A DNA stretch of 64,000 nt from the NCBI GenBank assembly GCA_946555345.1, contig CAMNSS010000013.1, positions 1 through 64,000 of the forward strand, read 5' to 3'. Numbering within the stretch: position 1 is the first letter of the stretch; the number at the start of each line of letters is the position of its first letter. A program made the position numbers and the translations under genes. A model generated the notes under the pieces. That model was not told the origin of the DNA. It saw only the letters and a program-made list of their open reading frames with translations, and searched no databases. The DNA comes from an uncultured Eubacterium sp. GTDB lineage: Bacteria; Bacillota; Clostridia; Peptostreptococcales; Anaerovoracaceae. Of the stretch, positions 48,576-53,580 are shown one piece after another.

Positions 48576-49301
48576 TTATTTCAATTTTTCACAGATGTAC
48601 CGGTTCGCTTGATGCTCCAGTTCATCGCCGAGCGGCTCCAGCGTGATGTCGCCCCGGTATTTGCGCCGCAATGCCTGTTCCAGAAGAAAATCGCAGATCT
48701 CCGGGTTTTTCGGCAAGAGTGGTCCATGAAGATACGTCCCGATGCAGTTTTTATAGATCACGCCTTCCTTGCCCGATTTTTCCGTGTTGCCGAAGCCCCG
48801 CGCCACGCTGCCAAATGCATTGTAATTTCCGATATATGTCCGCCCGCTGTGGTTTTCAAACCCGACGATCGGATTTGTGAAGCGATCGCTTTTTAGGACT
48901 ACGTTTCCCGTCAAGCGTTTTGCCTCCCACTGCGTGTAAATATCCAGGATACCGGTTCCTTCTATCGTCGTCCTGCTCGTTTTATAGTAATTTCCTAAGA
49001 GCTGATACCCGCCGCAAACTGCAAGCGTCACGCCGCCATCCTCCACATATTCCTGAAAGCCGTGTTTCACTTCGCATAAAAAGCGGCAGGCGATTTCCTG
49101 CTCCCGGTCGGAGCCTCCCCCTAGCAGCACAATATCAAGCTTCGTGAAGTCGATCTGATCCCCAGCATAAACAGCCGTTACTTCCGGTTCAATCCCCCGC
49201 CAGGAAAGCCGCTTCTGGAAGCACTGGATATTTCCCCGGTCTCCGTATAGGTTCAATAAGTCTGGATATAAATGCCCAATAGTCAGTTTGATGATCCGCA
49301 C
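48576..49301 (-). CDS. gatD: Lipid II isoglutaminyl synthase, glutaminase subunit GatD
   Basis: A 241-residue class I glutamine amidotransferase. Features are the family N-terminus KLTIGHLYPDLLNLYGDRGN, the nucleophile cysteine in LAVCGGYQLLG, and the histidine in GTYLHGPLLPKNPEICD. GatD frees ammonia from glutamine for MurT, which amidates glutamate of lipid II. I chose GTG 49299-49301, which matches the usual 241-243 residues; an AGGAAA sequence precedes it. MurT lies 139 bases upstream in the same direction. Confidence 0.93.
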   Translation of the reverse strand: MRIIKLTIGHLYPDLLNLYGDRGNIQCFQKRLSWRGIEPEVTAVYAGDQIDFTKLDIVLLGGGSDREQEIACRFLCEVKHGFQEYVEDGGVTLAVCGGYQLLGNYYKTSRTTIEGTGILDIYTQWEAKRLTGNVVLKSDRFTNPIVGFENHSGRTYIGNYNAFGSVARGFGNTEKSGKEGVIYKNCIGTYLHGPLLPKNPEICDFLLEQALRRKYRGDITLEPLGDELEHQANRYICEKLK

Positions 49302-49440
49302 CCCTTTCCTGTTCCCATATGGGAAAACCATCTCCTCTTGCACGGGGGAAACCGAGCGTTTCACCCGCATTGCGCATATGGCAAGAATGTCTTAACATTA
49401 TTCAGGCGCCACGCAGCCAGGCTGCGCTATCCTGGCAAAA

Positions 49441-50799
49441 TTACGCAGTCATCGCCGTGCCGCGCTGTAACCTGTGCAGCATACGGTTTGCAGCCAAAAG
49501 TCCGGAATAATTAACGATCAAATACAGATTGCCCGTTCCATCCTGCGCCAGCCGCCTGATTGCACTTTCCATATTTTCCACCAAATCACAAGCAATATCA
49601 TCATAGAGCAGCCTGAGCGCTAAATCCAGGCGGCGTGTCCCCGCAACGCCAACCGTCGCCGCATGGGCCGCTTTAAAATGTTGAAAATCCACATCCCAGA
49701 GCCATGAGATATCCTTCCCATCCTGCGCCGCATCGTTTATCTGCACAAGGATATCTTTCGAGCCAGCATCCTTGCATACCAGCGAAATTTTCTGCTGAAA
49801 ACCTACCGGGTTTTTCGCCAGGCAGAGGCACACCCTCGCCCCATGTATAAAAAACGTTTCCTCCCGCCGATTGCCATAATCGAAGGATTCCGCCGCCGCC
49901 TGAAAACCAGCAGACGGCGCGCCTGCCGCTTTGATTGCCGCATAAGCGGAAAGCGTGTTATAAACATTATAGGGAGCCTTTGTCTGGGAATGGATCGTCA
50001 TGCCATCTAGCACGAACCGATACCGGCCATCCCGGGTTTCGATCTGTTCCGCTTTGTAATCCGGCAAAGGACGCTTCCAGCCACAGTGCGGACACTGGTA
50101 AATGCCTAATTGCCCATAATGGAAAAATGCATATTCCATTTTCCTCCCGCAAGAAGGGCAAAACGTGCTTTCCCGCACCTCCGGACTGGAAATATCATCA
50201 AAGATCCGCTGGCCGATCCCATAGCCCGCAAGGGGATTCCCGCACCCAGCGGCGATCGCATACGAAATTGGATCATCGCAATTCACCACCAGCCTTGCTT
50301 CCGGCGCTGCCGTAACCGCTTCCCGTATCCGTTCGCGCACGATATCGATCTCGCCATAACGGTCGATCTGATCCCGGAAAAGATTGGTTAAAAGAATACA
50401 GTCAGGGCGCAATGCGGGAAGAACCTGCGCCGCAGCGAACTCATCCACTTCGATGCAAGCATAATCCGCATCCAGCCGTCCTTTGCAATCAGCCGCTAAA
50501 ACGAAGGATGCAATGATTCCATTGCGCATATTTGCCCCGGTGCGGTTGATGAGAACTTTCTTTCCCTCCGCCCGCAATGCATGGCAAATCATGCTGTTTG
50601 TCGTCGTCTTGCCATTTGTCCCCATGACTACAATGATTTTATCTTTTACCAGCCCCGCCATATCAGCCAGGATGCTGGGATCGATCCGCCGGGCGATAGC
50701 TCCTGGCAAAACGCTGCCGCCGCCTCGTCTCAATCTTTGAATCATCACACTCATACCTTTTGCGCATAAAATCGCCATTCGCCTTCGCAAGTTTAACAT
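49441..50799 (-). CDS. murT: Lipid II isoglutaminyl synthase, Mur-ligase subunit MurT
   Basis: A 452-residue Mur-ligase homologue. The ATP loop is VVMGTNGKTTTNSMI, then LLTNLFRDQIDRYGEID. A zinc ribbon (CPSCG ... CPHCG, about residues 218-240) and a C-terminal DUF1727 domain (NYSGLLAANRML) distinguish MurT from MurE. It activates the D-glutamate carboxylate of lipid II and accepts ammonia from GatD. AGGAGG precedes the ATG. The long, poorly coding stretch upstream makes its promoter hard to locate. Confidence 0.94.
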   Translation of the reverse strand: MLNLRRRMAILCAKGMSVMIQRLRRGGGSVLPGAIARRIDPSILADMAGLVKDKIIVVMGTNGKTTTNSMICHALRAEGKKVLINRTGANMRNGIIASFVLAADCKGRLDADYACIEVDEFAAAQVLPALRPDCILLTNLFRDQIDRYGEIDIVRERIREAVTAAPEARLVVNCDDPISYAIAAGCGNPLAGYGIGQRIFDDISSPEVRESTFCPSCGRKMEYAFFHYGQLGIYQCPHCGWKRPLPDYKAEQIETRDGRYRFVLDGMTIHSQTKAPYNVYNTLSAYAAIKAAGAPSAGFQAAAESFDYGNRREETFFIHGARVCLCLAKNPVGFQQKISLVCKDAGSKDILVQINDAAQDGKDISWLWDVDFQHFKAAHAATVGVAGTRRLDLALRLLYDDIACDLVENMESAIRRLAQDGTGNLYLIVNYSGLLAANRMLHRLQRGTAMTA

Positions 50800-51168
50800 C
50801 TGTGATACCTCCTGTTCCTGCCGTCATGATAAGCTAATTTCCAGGGCGGGTTCAATAAACGCCCGCCCCGTATAAAAAGATTTTGAAAGCGTCCAGATAT
50901 GCCTTGTTAACGTGCCTGGCAGACATACCTAGCCGATTTTCGAGAGCGGCTGTTGTTCACCCGTCTTACACGAACCAATGCCCAGGAGCATCCGAAACGC
51001 TCCGCCTATTTTTATGATAGCTTATGCCGTCATGCCATGTATCACCGCTTTCTATGAAAGACCCTGCTAATTTTTTAAAAATTTCTTACTTTTTTCTTAA
51101 CGTGAAACGAGCTGGAAAGCCCAATAAGGGCGGAAGGCGGGAGCAGAATGGGAAGCCAGACAGGGACG

Positions 51169-51247
51169 GGACGGCGGAATCAGTGTTAACGGCGGGAAAC
51201 CCAATAGAAGAACGGCGGAATCGATGCTGGAGGCGGGAAACCCAATC
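51169..51247. repeat. Direct repeat GACGGCGGAATC...GGCGGGAAACCCAAT
   Basis: Two units, about 51170-51207 and 51211-51247, share GGCGGAATC at the start and GGCGGGAAACCCAAT at the end, with the middle diverged. Confidence 0.65.
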
Positions 51248-52082
51248 TCATTAAGCTTCGGAAAAGCGAAAGACCCGGCCGCCGCAGGAATCGGGGCAGA
51301 AACGGGAAAACATCCCATTAAAGCAACTAAAAAATAAACCGGGCATCTCCAGTTTCAGCGAAAACGAAATAATCATAGGCACACGCGCTGGCCGCGCCCG
51401 CCGCAGCCTTGCAAAAGAAAATCCCGGACATGCCCTTCTGAAAAAGAAAACCCCGCCGCCTAAAGCCCCTAAACTTTTAAAAAAGATATATTCATTTCCG
51501 CTAGAAAACCAGGAAAGCAAAACGCTATCAAAAAGCATGGCTGTTCTCCCTGATATAAACTCACAGGAACACGTTCTGGAATCAGGGCCATTCCTATAAT
51601 TTTCTTCCTGCTTTGGCAATCCTGCTTTTTTGAATCATATCGGGCAACGACCCATTGGAAACTTCATATATCAGAAAAACCGCTTCAAGCCGCATCAATC
51701 GACAGTGTCATTGGGTCTTCGGTCTCCCGTCATCCAAGCCATCCGCCTATTTCTGCCGCTGCCGCTATCTATTGAAACCCCTTTTTTACATATCTTTCCC
51801 TGTGCTTGGCGGCTCTGGCTTGACTGCTGATGGTTTCCTGCGTTTGCCGGCTCTGGCTTGTCTGCCCCATCGTCCCCTGCGGTTGCCCCTATTGGCCATT
51901 GCCCCATCGTTTTTGGCAGCTTTCAGTCTAATGCGATGAGGTTCCTTCAAGCCCGCTCGGCGACGCTTTCCCGTTTTTCTTTGGCGATCACTTTCGCTTC
52001 GCCTGATCGGCATCCATTCATTTATGGTTCTTTGCAAGATGATGCAAAACGCACTTTAATTTCCAAAACAGGTATATTGAGT

Positions 52083-52112
52083 GATTATCAAAAAGTGTAC
52101 TTTTTGATAATC
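52083..52112. other. hix-like recombination site 1 (central dinucleotide GT)
   Basis: A perfect palindrome: GATTATCAAAAAGT, centre GT (52097-52098), ACTTTTTGATAATC. The 12-base half-site TTATCAAAAAGT matches 10 of 12 bases of the Hin half-site TTATCAAAAACC. Serine invertases cut at a two-base centre in such 26-base sites. Confidence 0.6.
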
Positions 52113-52152
52113 GCAAAACCTGAAAGGAAACAATAGCTGCGCTATTTAAAAC

Positions 52153-52197
52153 GAAAGCGCGCTTTCAAAACCATCCCCGCATCGAATGCGGGGTTTT
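52153..52197 (+). terminator. Palindrome and terminator inside the candidate invertible segment
   Basis: GAAAGCGCGCTTTC (52153-52166) is followed by CCCCGCA/TGCGGGG with a five-base loop and TTTT (52175-52197), an intrinsic terminator on the plus strand. It lies upstream of, and in the same direction as, the promoter at 52296. Confidence 0.7.
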
Positions 52198-52295
52198 CCC
52201 TATTCAAAACCAGCGGGCTTCCAGCGACGAGGTTTCCTGTCTTTTTTCCAATACCTTTATCCCTTGTTTTTCTGCATCCGCTACCCGAATAATCA

Positions 52296-52324
52296 TTGCT
52301 TACTGGAATATTTTATTGTATAAT
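52296..52324 (+). promoter_or_regulatory. Strong promoter inside the candidate invertible segment
   Basis: TTGCTT (52296-52301), exactly 17 bases, TATAAT (52319-52324). In this orientation it fires rightward into the 3' end of the recombinase gene (antisense) and toward the chemoreceptor; inverted it would fire toward murT-gatD. Confidence 0.75.
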
Positions 52325-52338
52325 CAGAACAGGAAAGA

Positions 52339-52370
52339 CGGCTATCAAAAAGTACACTTTTTGATAGCCG
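52339..52370. other. hix-like recombination site 2 (central dinucleotide AC)
   Basis: A perfect palindrome: CGGCTATCAAAAAGT, centre AC (52354-52355), ACTTTTTGATAGCCG. The core TATCAAAAAGT/ACTTTTTGATA is identical to site 1, but the centre is the complement, so the two sites are in inverted relative orientation. Confidence 0.6.
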
Positions 52371-52535
52371 CCTTTGTTAAAACCACAAAAGAACCTATCC
52401 TCTTGCTTGCGTCCGAATCTTCGCCTACAGACTGGACACGAGTTCCACTATTCATTTTAATCGCAGTTTTGCCCCCGCCGCACAGGCAGATCATACAAAC
52501 CGGCCGGCATCGGCCATCAAACGATCGCGATGGGT

Positions 52536-53174
<639 letters not shown>

Positions 53175-53580
53175 CTATGCCTGATCGATCGCTTGCTTTG
53201 TTGTCCTGCCATGCCATGGCGCTATGCCCGGTTTTCGCCGTGCATCCGCTTTGCGGCATAAAATCACGCCATTTCCCGCATGATTGATTATATCTGATTC
53301 ATCGCTTTCGTTACAACTTCATGGAGAAAAGGCTTTCTTTCTGTTCTGCCATGGGTATATGGGGCGGAAGGACGCCTCGGATTTCTTGCTATGGCTGCAC
53401 AAGATAAATGGCTTTCCCTTAACTCTGCTACGACTGCGCAAGCCAGAAAATTTTCCCTTATTTTTAATTTAAAAACATACTTTTAGAGAAAATCCCCTCA
53501 AAAAAAATTTCCCATGCATTCCATATTTCTATGCCTGCTAAGACAGGGACTCCCTTGTTTCGAGAAAAATGGCTTTTAAT

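Follow-up and report, generated by a model that had tools for sequence, protein, structure and literature searches.

Sin and the resolvases of Tn552 and Tn3 type work at res sites carried by plasmids and transposons, serine recombinases of the small size considered here exchange strands at the central dinucleotide of their sites, and the invertible regions controlled by Mpi of Bacteroides fragilis are promoters. Mpi is described as a serine-type recombinase inverting regions (PMC5903667). In the Hin/hix flagellar switch of Salmonella the inverted segment bears a promoter (PMC2784873), and the core base pairs of the Hin sites are the place of cleavage and exchange (PMC4513852). For CwpV of Clostridioides difficile, the proposal is that inversion creates an intrinsic terminator at the inverted-repeat junction, within the OFF transcript (PMC2784873). 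The DNA analysed here (the window, the whole stretch of 64,000 nucleotides) contains at 52083-53147 what is, on sequence grounds, very probably a self-contained phase-variation module, with an invertible promoter flipped by an adjacent serine recombinase. A preliminary description had proposed such a phase-variable promoter, and support for it now comes from conservation of the layout, the centre rule (64/64), promoter position in both directions and the hairpin test. The features are as follows.

48576-49370, minus strand: gatD, downstream of murT.
49441-50799, minus strand: murT, the nearest recognisable collinear gene beyond the distal site, about 1.29 kb off; a possible target.
52086-52109, no strand: predicted distal crossover site, TATCAAAAAGT-GT-ACTTTTTGATA, centre GT at 52097-52098; core of a palindrome with 14-bp arms at 52083-52112.
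52097-52355, no strand: predicted invertible segment, placed from the site centres, with cuts at both central dinucleotides.
52175-52200, plus strand: terminator-like stem-loop with a T-run (stem 52175-52193), inside the segment and behind the promoter; a possible insulator.
52296-52324, plus strand: predicted sigma-70-type promoter, TTGCTT-17-TATAAT, called from sequence and pointing at the 3' end of the recombinase gene (OFF-like state).
52339-52370, plus strand: predicted terminator-like hairpin, 14 pairs with tail CCTTTGTTAA, spanning the proximal site in the present orientation only.
52343-52366, no strand: predicted proximal crossover site, TATCAAAAAGT-AC-ACTTTTTGATA, centre AC at 52354-52355; core of a longer palindrome at 52334-52375.
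52536-53147, minus strand: small serine recombinase, 203 aa and intact (PF00239, 105 bits), the proposed invertase of the switch.

The two 24-bp palindromes have perfect 11-bp arms in common (TATCAAAAAGT/ACTTTTTGATA) around inverted centres (GT and AC), start 257 bp apart with 233 bp between their cores, and both match the family consensus at 24/24 positions. On the minus strand, read from right to left, the order is recombinase (53147-52536), a spacer of 169 bp, palindrome (52366-52343), promoter segment and palindrome (52109-52086). The spacing of 257 is the largest of 58 strict pairs (others 124-190), and the distance from recombinase stop to site (170) is also atypical. The preliminary description had noted the pair, with its common core and inverted GT/AC centres, and we found both members again at 52086-52109 and 52343-52366. 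Its match to 10 of 12 bases of the Hin half-site, for which we take the sequence as quoted there, holds for the left site (10/12); the right site has 9/12. Site-like palindromes with up to three mismatches arose in none of 100 shuffles of the window. Scattering of the palindromes over the genome had been named as evidence against the reading; because both are the sole matches in their own genome (2.85 Mb in 36 contigs, 96% complete) at up to two mismatches, they are not scattered repeats. The non-coding stretches flanking the switch also hold diverged direct-repeat pairs of 32-35 bp, spaced 38-41 bp (51171-51246, 51796-51865 and 53387-53460).

A Hin-sized serine recombinase had been reported next to the sites, and the gene is indeed an intact 203-aa ORF with the palindromes on its 3' side. 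Its product has the PF00239 catalytic domain and the Ser and Arg motifs, ARVSS and SIDRLGRN, aligned with Sin, as expected of the resolvase/invertase type, and a C-terminal helix-turn-helix read by eye. Compared with solved structures, it scores 108.7 bits to Sin, 79.9 to gamma-delta, about 80 to Tn3 resolvases and 60.2 to the DNA-invertase entries (4m6f and 3uj3, which we take to be Gin), and so is not closer in sequence to DNA invertases than to resolvases within that set. Because Sin and Tn3/gamma-delta outscore the DNA-invertase entries, the earlier term 'Hin-family' suits the mechanism better than the ancestry. Against the Mpi model the enzyme reaches 33.9 bits (cut-off 272), a weak match.

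Relatives of the enzyme found in named genomes number 458; the nearest 80 were retained (70-77% identical), mostly from Clostridia, with many named Lachnospiraceae, Oscillospiraceae or Ruminococcaceae. Within the window's own family, 52/349 genomes have one at E ≤ 1e-60 (own included), as do 44/296 of a wider sample at E ≤ 1e-30. A recombinase tree built from 136 of 144 sequences, whose bootstrap had not settled, places the window enzyme in a clade of 85 rows (support 100/98), of which 57 bear the module, 18 lack it and 10 are unassessed. On this tree the module label changes 23 times against a shuffled mean of 40.9, which indicates that the module is clustered but has been repeatedly gained, lost or overlooked by the search. 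The window's own genome also carries a broken second recombinase relative (G000:C1:120638-121201; 47% identity, two in-frame TGA), and no site pair was detected 3' of it.

The layout recurs widely. With a script that placed the recombinase in each locus and scanned its 3' side for site pairs, the module was found in 52/69 assessable loci from named genomes (80 fetched; two duplicates and nine with <250 bp of 3' sequence dropped), a fraction that applies to these nearest 80 of the 458 relatives and not to the whole family. The module was also found in 17/60 assessable loci from the window's relatives (64 fetched, four too short), eight by consensus and nine by de novo search only, whose threshold was reached in 0/262 shuffles. 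Of the motif matches in the recombinase loci fetched, 121/123 lie between -60 and +600 of the recombinase stop codon. The remaining loci (17/69 and 43/60) have no detectable module, from which it follows that many family members act otherwise, have lost it or escape the search. Among viral, phage and plasmid loci, 3/84 distinct ones reach the site-pair threshold (5' control, 0/84), over a scanned range that misses locus L126, whose pair sits further out.

It is the layout and not the exact sequence that is general, since the palindrome pattern is matched in only 5/100 genomes of relatives (own included) and the layout is present in many loci. Half-sites of more distant homologues differ (for example, TTTGCAAAGGT) within the same layout. 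A single genome, G136, has two modules (L016 and L235) with differing half-sites, TGTCAAAAAGT and TTTGCAAAGGT; such differences between homologues, and within G136, mean that several independent switches could coexist in one cell, and the G136 pair could be independent in this sense. The recombinase of locus L250 (G142:C13), 36% identical to that of the window, has the same layout, a nearly identical half-site (TGTCAAAAGGT) and a self-complementary TA centre, with which both inversion and deletion are possible in principle; this locus is counted in the 17/60 and left out of the promoter-direction and outer-arm counts below. Plasmid records with a recombinase relative number 388, all at <60% identity. 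In four that were inspected, the relative adjoins transposase genes in two and is followed by a VanZ-family gene in one, and one is an Enterococcus case, Enterococcus faecalis pGTC3 (L230). There, a 51%-identical recombinase is accompanied by a site pair with AG/CT centres, and genes for an Rrf2 regulator and an LRR protein follow the recombinase.

Because the arms are palindromic, the centre is the sole polarity of a site. In all 58 strict pairs (one duplicate locus included) proximal and distal centres are reverse complements of each other, and a search blind to the centre gave reverse-complementary centres in 64/64 pairs: GT/AC in 43, AC/GT in 11, AG/CT in three, CT/AG in two, TT/AA and AA/TT in one each, and self-complementary in three (AT twice, TA once) that are uninformative on polarity. 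The centres are thus inverted, not direct, in 61/61 non-self-complementary pairs, and the differing half-sites of distant homologues still obey the rule. The window pair itself has the form of Hin/Gin-type sites, two-fold and inverted around a 2-bp core of opposite polarity. Complementary centres are a requirement of inverted crossover sites, not of terminators or binding sites.

Between the sites lies the rightward TTGCTT-17-TATAAT reported earlier, which we also read at 52296-52324 on the plus strand (-35 at 52296-52301, 17-bp spacer, -10 at 52319-52324), 18 bp ahead of the right site; its weak -35 (3/6) explains its absence from the consensus-scan list. A promoter between two inverted sites is the arrangement expected of an inverton. 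A strict rule (TTG at -35, TAnnnT at -10, spacer 16-18, score at least 8/12, 14-20 bp from a site) finds a promoter in 49/68 readable segments and in 15/1360 shuffled ones; the remaining 19/68 yield no promoter under it, and another segment consists entirely of N. Of the 49 promoters, 44 point towards the recombinase and five away, and a looser count over 62 earlier loci gives 50 towards it, seven away and five with none, so that the opposite-direction set is small by either rule (five strict, seven looser; L046 fails the strict hexamer rule). Beyond the distal site, the first ORF is on the recombinase strand in 58/60 loci, at a median distance of 37 bp (ORFs of at least 90 aa, mechanically called; the window, one duplicate and one too-short locus omitted). 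Because the next ORF lies there on that strand, the direction away from the recombinase is taken as ON, and most assemblies, the window included, are by predicted promoter direction in an OFF-like state.

Relatives can be found in both directions. When the 62 segments were aligned all against all without their sites, 18 pairs matched, 15 on the plus strand and three on the minus strand, and each minus-strand pair (L046/L120, L052/L064 and L110/L115) joins an away-pointing with a recombinase-pointing promoter; L110 and L115 are sisters on the recombinase tree (99/99). Across 261 loci, no near-identical loci in opposite orientation were found, and the minus-strand match joining two switches in opposite directions was L046/L120, related at only 79%. 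We infer inversion from homologues for this reason, and the comparison with relatives that the preliminary description had proposed yields opposite promoter directions between relatives but no near-identical flipped pair. Two other sets of candidates were rejected: L024/L263, whose match is the long palindrome of the locus, and L075/L077/L103, whose matches likewise fall at the proximal site (judged by position). Separately, L084 (4190-4600) and L086 (3530-3950) are 95% identical through the recombinase and diverge at the proximal site, beyond which one has a segment and an LRR protein gene and the other a different gene; this pair makes the proximal site look like the edge at which one controlled gene is swapped for another.

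A second predicted element is built around the proximal site. The RNA of 52331-52382 is predicted to fold at -24.2 kcal/mol (z -8.0), with a modest T-tail on the hairpin. The preliminary description had counted the self-matched outer bases of each palindrome against inversion, which would mix them. That symmetry is real (14-bp arms on the left; 20-bp arms with one mismatch on the right), and it turns out to be a family trait, seen widely at the proximal site of OFF-like loci and falling to chance level when the segment is flipped. In 44 OFF-like loci, defined by promoter direction, 219/352 outer-arm pairs match as deposited and 93/352 after in silico inversion, which is close to chance (35 loci in that direction, four opposite, five tied). 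The five ON-like loci run the other way, from 11/40 as deposited to 25/40 after inversion (three in that direction, none opposite, two tied). Looser sets give 226 to 95 of 368 (46 loci) and 17 to 37 of 56 (seven loci).

Hairpin energies follow the same course. For 45 OFF-like loci the mean at the proximal site (sense/antisense) is -17.4/-18.2 as deposited and -9.3/-9.8 inverted, with contrary values in 7/45 (sense) and 4/45 (antisense); for seven ON-like loci it is -11.3/-9.9 as deposited and -18.7/-19.5 inverted, contrary in 2/7 and 0/7. T-runs (at least six T in eight) stand just outside the proximal site in 30/52 loci and outside the distal site in 3/52. Because the hairpin is regained after in silico inversion, ON-like loci look like the flipped OFF ground state, and a flip apparently both reverses the promoter and dismantles the terminator-like hairpin.

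The rightward terminator reported between the palindromes is present as the terminator-like stem at 52175-52193. Terminator-like sites in the switch region number seven (shuffle mean 4.6, s.d. 2.2), not clearly above shuffles. A stretch of 32-41 bp from 52167 occurs once more in the window's own genome and once in genome G047; when the DNA of 50800-52535 was compared with 120 relatives, this single 41-bp terminator-like stretch in G047 was the only match apart from the own genome. The sole Rfam match at E ≤ 0.1 is far below its gathering score. The promoter had been said to face the recombinase and chemoreceptor side; the direction is right, but it should not drive the chemoreceptor in the present orientation, as the transcript would run into the hairpin (52339-52370) almost immediately, and this is the OFF direction in relatives.

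The sites, their centres, the promoter, the predicted hairpin, the conservation and the opposite promoter directions in different relatives are what these sequences present. From them we infer catalysis by the window enzyme, flipping in the source strain and effects on transcription and termination. In the mechanism we propose, the recombinase would bind both palindromic sites, cut them at the central dinucleotides with a 2-bp stagger and invert the approximately 257 bp between them. In the present state the promoter would fire towards the 3' end of the recombinase gene and its transcript would end at once in the hairpin, whose two outer arms flank the proximal crossover, one on each side. Once the segment is inverted, the promoter would face the gene beyond the distal site, and the hairpin would be broken because its arms are parted.

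Which genes would be controlled varies greatly. Thirty first genes, hand-picked from 59 on the recombinase strand, were compared with Pfam: 24 match a family at E ≤ 1e-5 (the one in L046 below Pfam's own cut-off) and six do not. They include surface LRR proteins of the BspA type, SLH/SHIRT, VWA/tip-pilin-like proteins, GH16, C39 peptidase/ABC exporters, radical SAM/SPASM, acyltransferases, AMP-binding, FkbH, SPFH, TIR/TPR, PP2C phosphatase and protein kinase. With such variety among the first genes, the module is bound to no single pathway. One of these genes, in L055 (5612-7045), encodes a protein with a Cas12f1-like TNB domain.

At the window locus, no convincing gene lies in 50800-52085, in agreement with the earlier remark that no target ORF directly adjoins the sites: there is no convincing ORF close to the distal site. 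A search for a decayed target in 50700-52500, using all ORF products of at least 100 aa encoded beyond the recombinase in an earlier set of fetched loci, gave short matches at E 0.005-0.01 and the window's own ORF only. The murT-gatD pair (lipid II isoglutaminyl synthase subunits), which the preliminary description had served by the promoter in its other orientation, is the nearest collinear operon and on the right strand, but is not established as the target. Among 51 genomes searched, murT was found at E ≤ 1e-60 in one, the window's own, which suggests gain of murT-gatD here, or loss or divergence in relatives. There is also a promoter-like sequence belonging to murT itself, at 50855-50826, but it is not above chance.

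These observations give some weight to the idea that the module is real in the family and the window copy stranded, with recombinase and sites intact, the target gene lost and switching without effect. We regard this as a possible, if somewhat doubtful, account: it would fit the result that no known target, as an ORF or as a remnant, was found within about 1.28 kb of the distal site, the distance of murT with its promoter-like sequence (not above chance) and the broken second recombinase copy, whereas the sites match the consensus at 24/24, the promoter position is canonical, the recombinase ORF is intact and murT-gatD is oriented as a target should be. Intact sites, promoter and ORF suggest that the window copy functioned recently.

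It is improbable that the palindromes only terminate transcription in both directions, or bind a regulator, where the recombinase gene ends, without any recombination taking place. The proximal palindrome does fold as a strong hairpin, T-runs are common on the recombinase side (30/52), another genome (L006) has a single, unpaired exact copy of the palindrome, and L263 has a long proximal palindrome for which no distal site was found. Terminators, however, need neither complementary centres in a partner 100-190 bp off (64/64) nor a two-way promoter with a hairpin regained after inversion, and the L006 copy has a 32-aa recombinase-like fragment about 730 bp away. A resolvase whose two sites belong to a res site, serving excision or the resolution of multimers, is less likely still. 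Sin being the closest solved relative and transposase genes adjoining the enzyme's relative in 2/4 inspected plasmid records would suit it; yet Sin/Tn3 systems have directly oriented res sites, together with accessory subsites, and the window sites are inverted, centres are inverted in all 61 informative pairs, and the segment contains a promoter with the next gene just beyond, in one fixed direction. Least credible is that the palindromes are the ends of a small inserted, MITE-like element: two identical inverted cores do bound a short segment, but the own genome has a single such pair, and in other genomes the sites stand at the recombinase gene 3' end (121/123 matches), not scattered in the fetched loci.

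An invertible promoter with its own recombinase thus remains the preferred reading. Whether it extends to a widespread plug-in phase switch of gut Clostridia is, in our judgement, evenly balanced. In that wider proposal a resolvase-derived serine recombinase would have its own promoter segment alongside and the crossover site would be the core of an OFF-only terminator, so that one inversion would reverse the promoter and make or break the terminator, shielding the recombinase gene from antisense transcription when OFF. Sequence alone picks out a large family of likely ON/OFF switches among gut bacteria, in which every switch comes with a candidate enzyme and the gene it should control. Heterogeneity in little-studied Clostridia thereby becomes testable, recombinase/site pairs of differing specificity are potential genetic tools, and the signature of complementary centres with a state-dependent hairpin may reveal a switch's present state from an assembly.

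In the open-licence literature we found no description of such a module, nor the exact 20-base motif. The locus resembles Hin/hix in its small serine recombinase, its two sites with core base pairs for exchange (PMC4513852) and a promoter inside the segment; it differs in its segment of about 100-260 bp, in having the recombinase outside that segment, in an enzyme with a better score to Sin than to the DNA-invertase entries and in site halves that also form a terminator-like hairpin. With CwpV it shares a putative terminator formed in the OFF orientation only, as proposed there (PMC2784873), but the CwpV promoter is described as outside its 195-bp segment and the tyrosine recombinase RecV as distant (PMC2784873), whereas the present segment contains its promoter and has a serine recombinase as its neighbour. 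Mpi is reported as one master enzyme for at least 13 scattered regions (PMC5903667), unlike the present family, where every recombinase is paired with a segment right beside it. Clostridial inverton group 139 (hCom2) is similar in having inverted segments in gut Clostridia that adjoin an invertase (PMC11892184), but is linked to tyrosine-type recombinases, the word 'serine' being absent from the main text of PMC11892184. Sin, Tn552-type and Tn3-type resolvases are the nearest sequence relatives with structures, and 2/4 plasmid relatives sit beside transposase genes; unlike those systems, the module has a simple inverted site pair around a promoter. Invertible promoters are a known kind of switch, and that reading of the locus is well supported by the sequence comparisons; here the switch comes with its own, adjacent resolvase-like serine recombinase, a compact segment and a predicted state-dependent hairpin on the crossover site.
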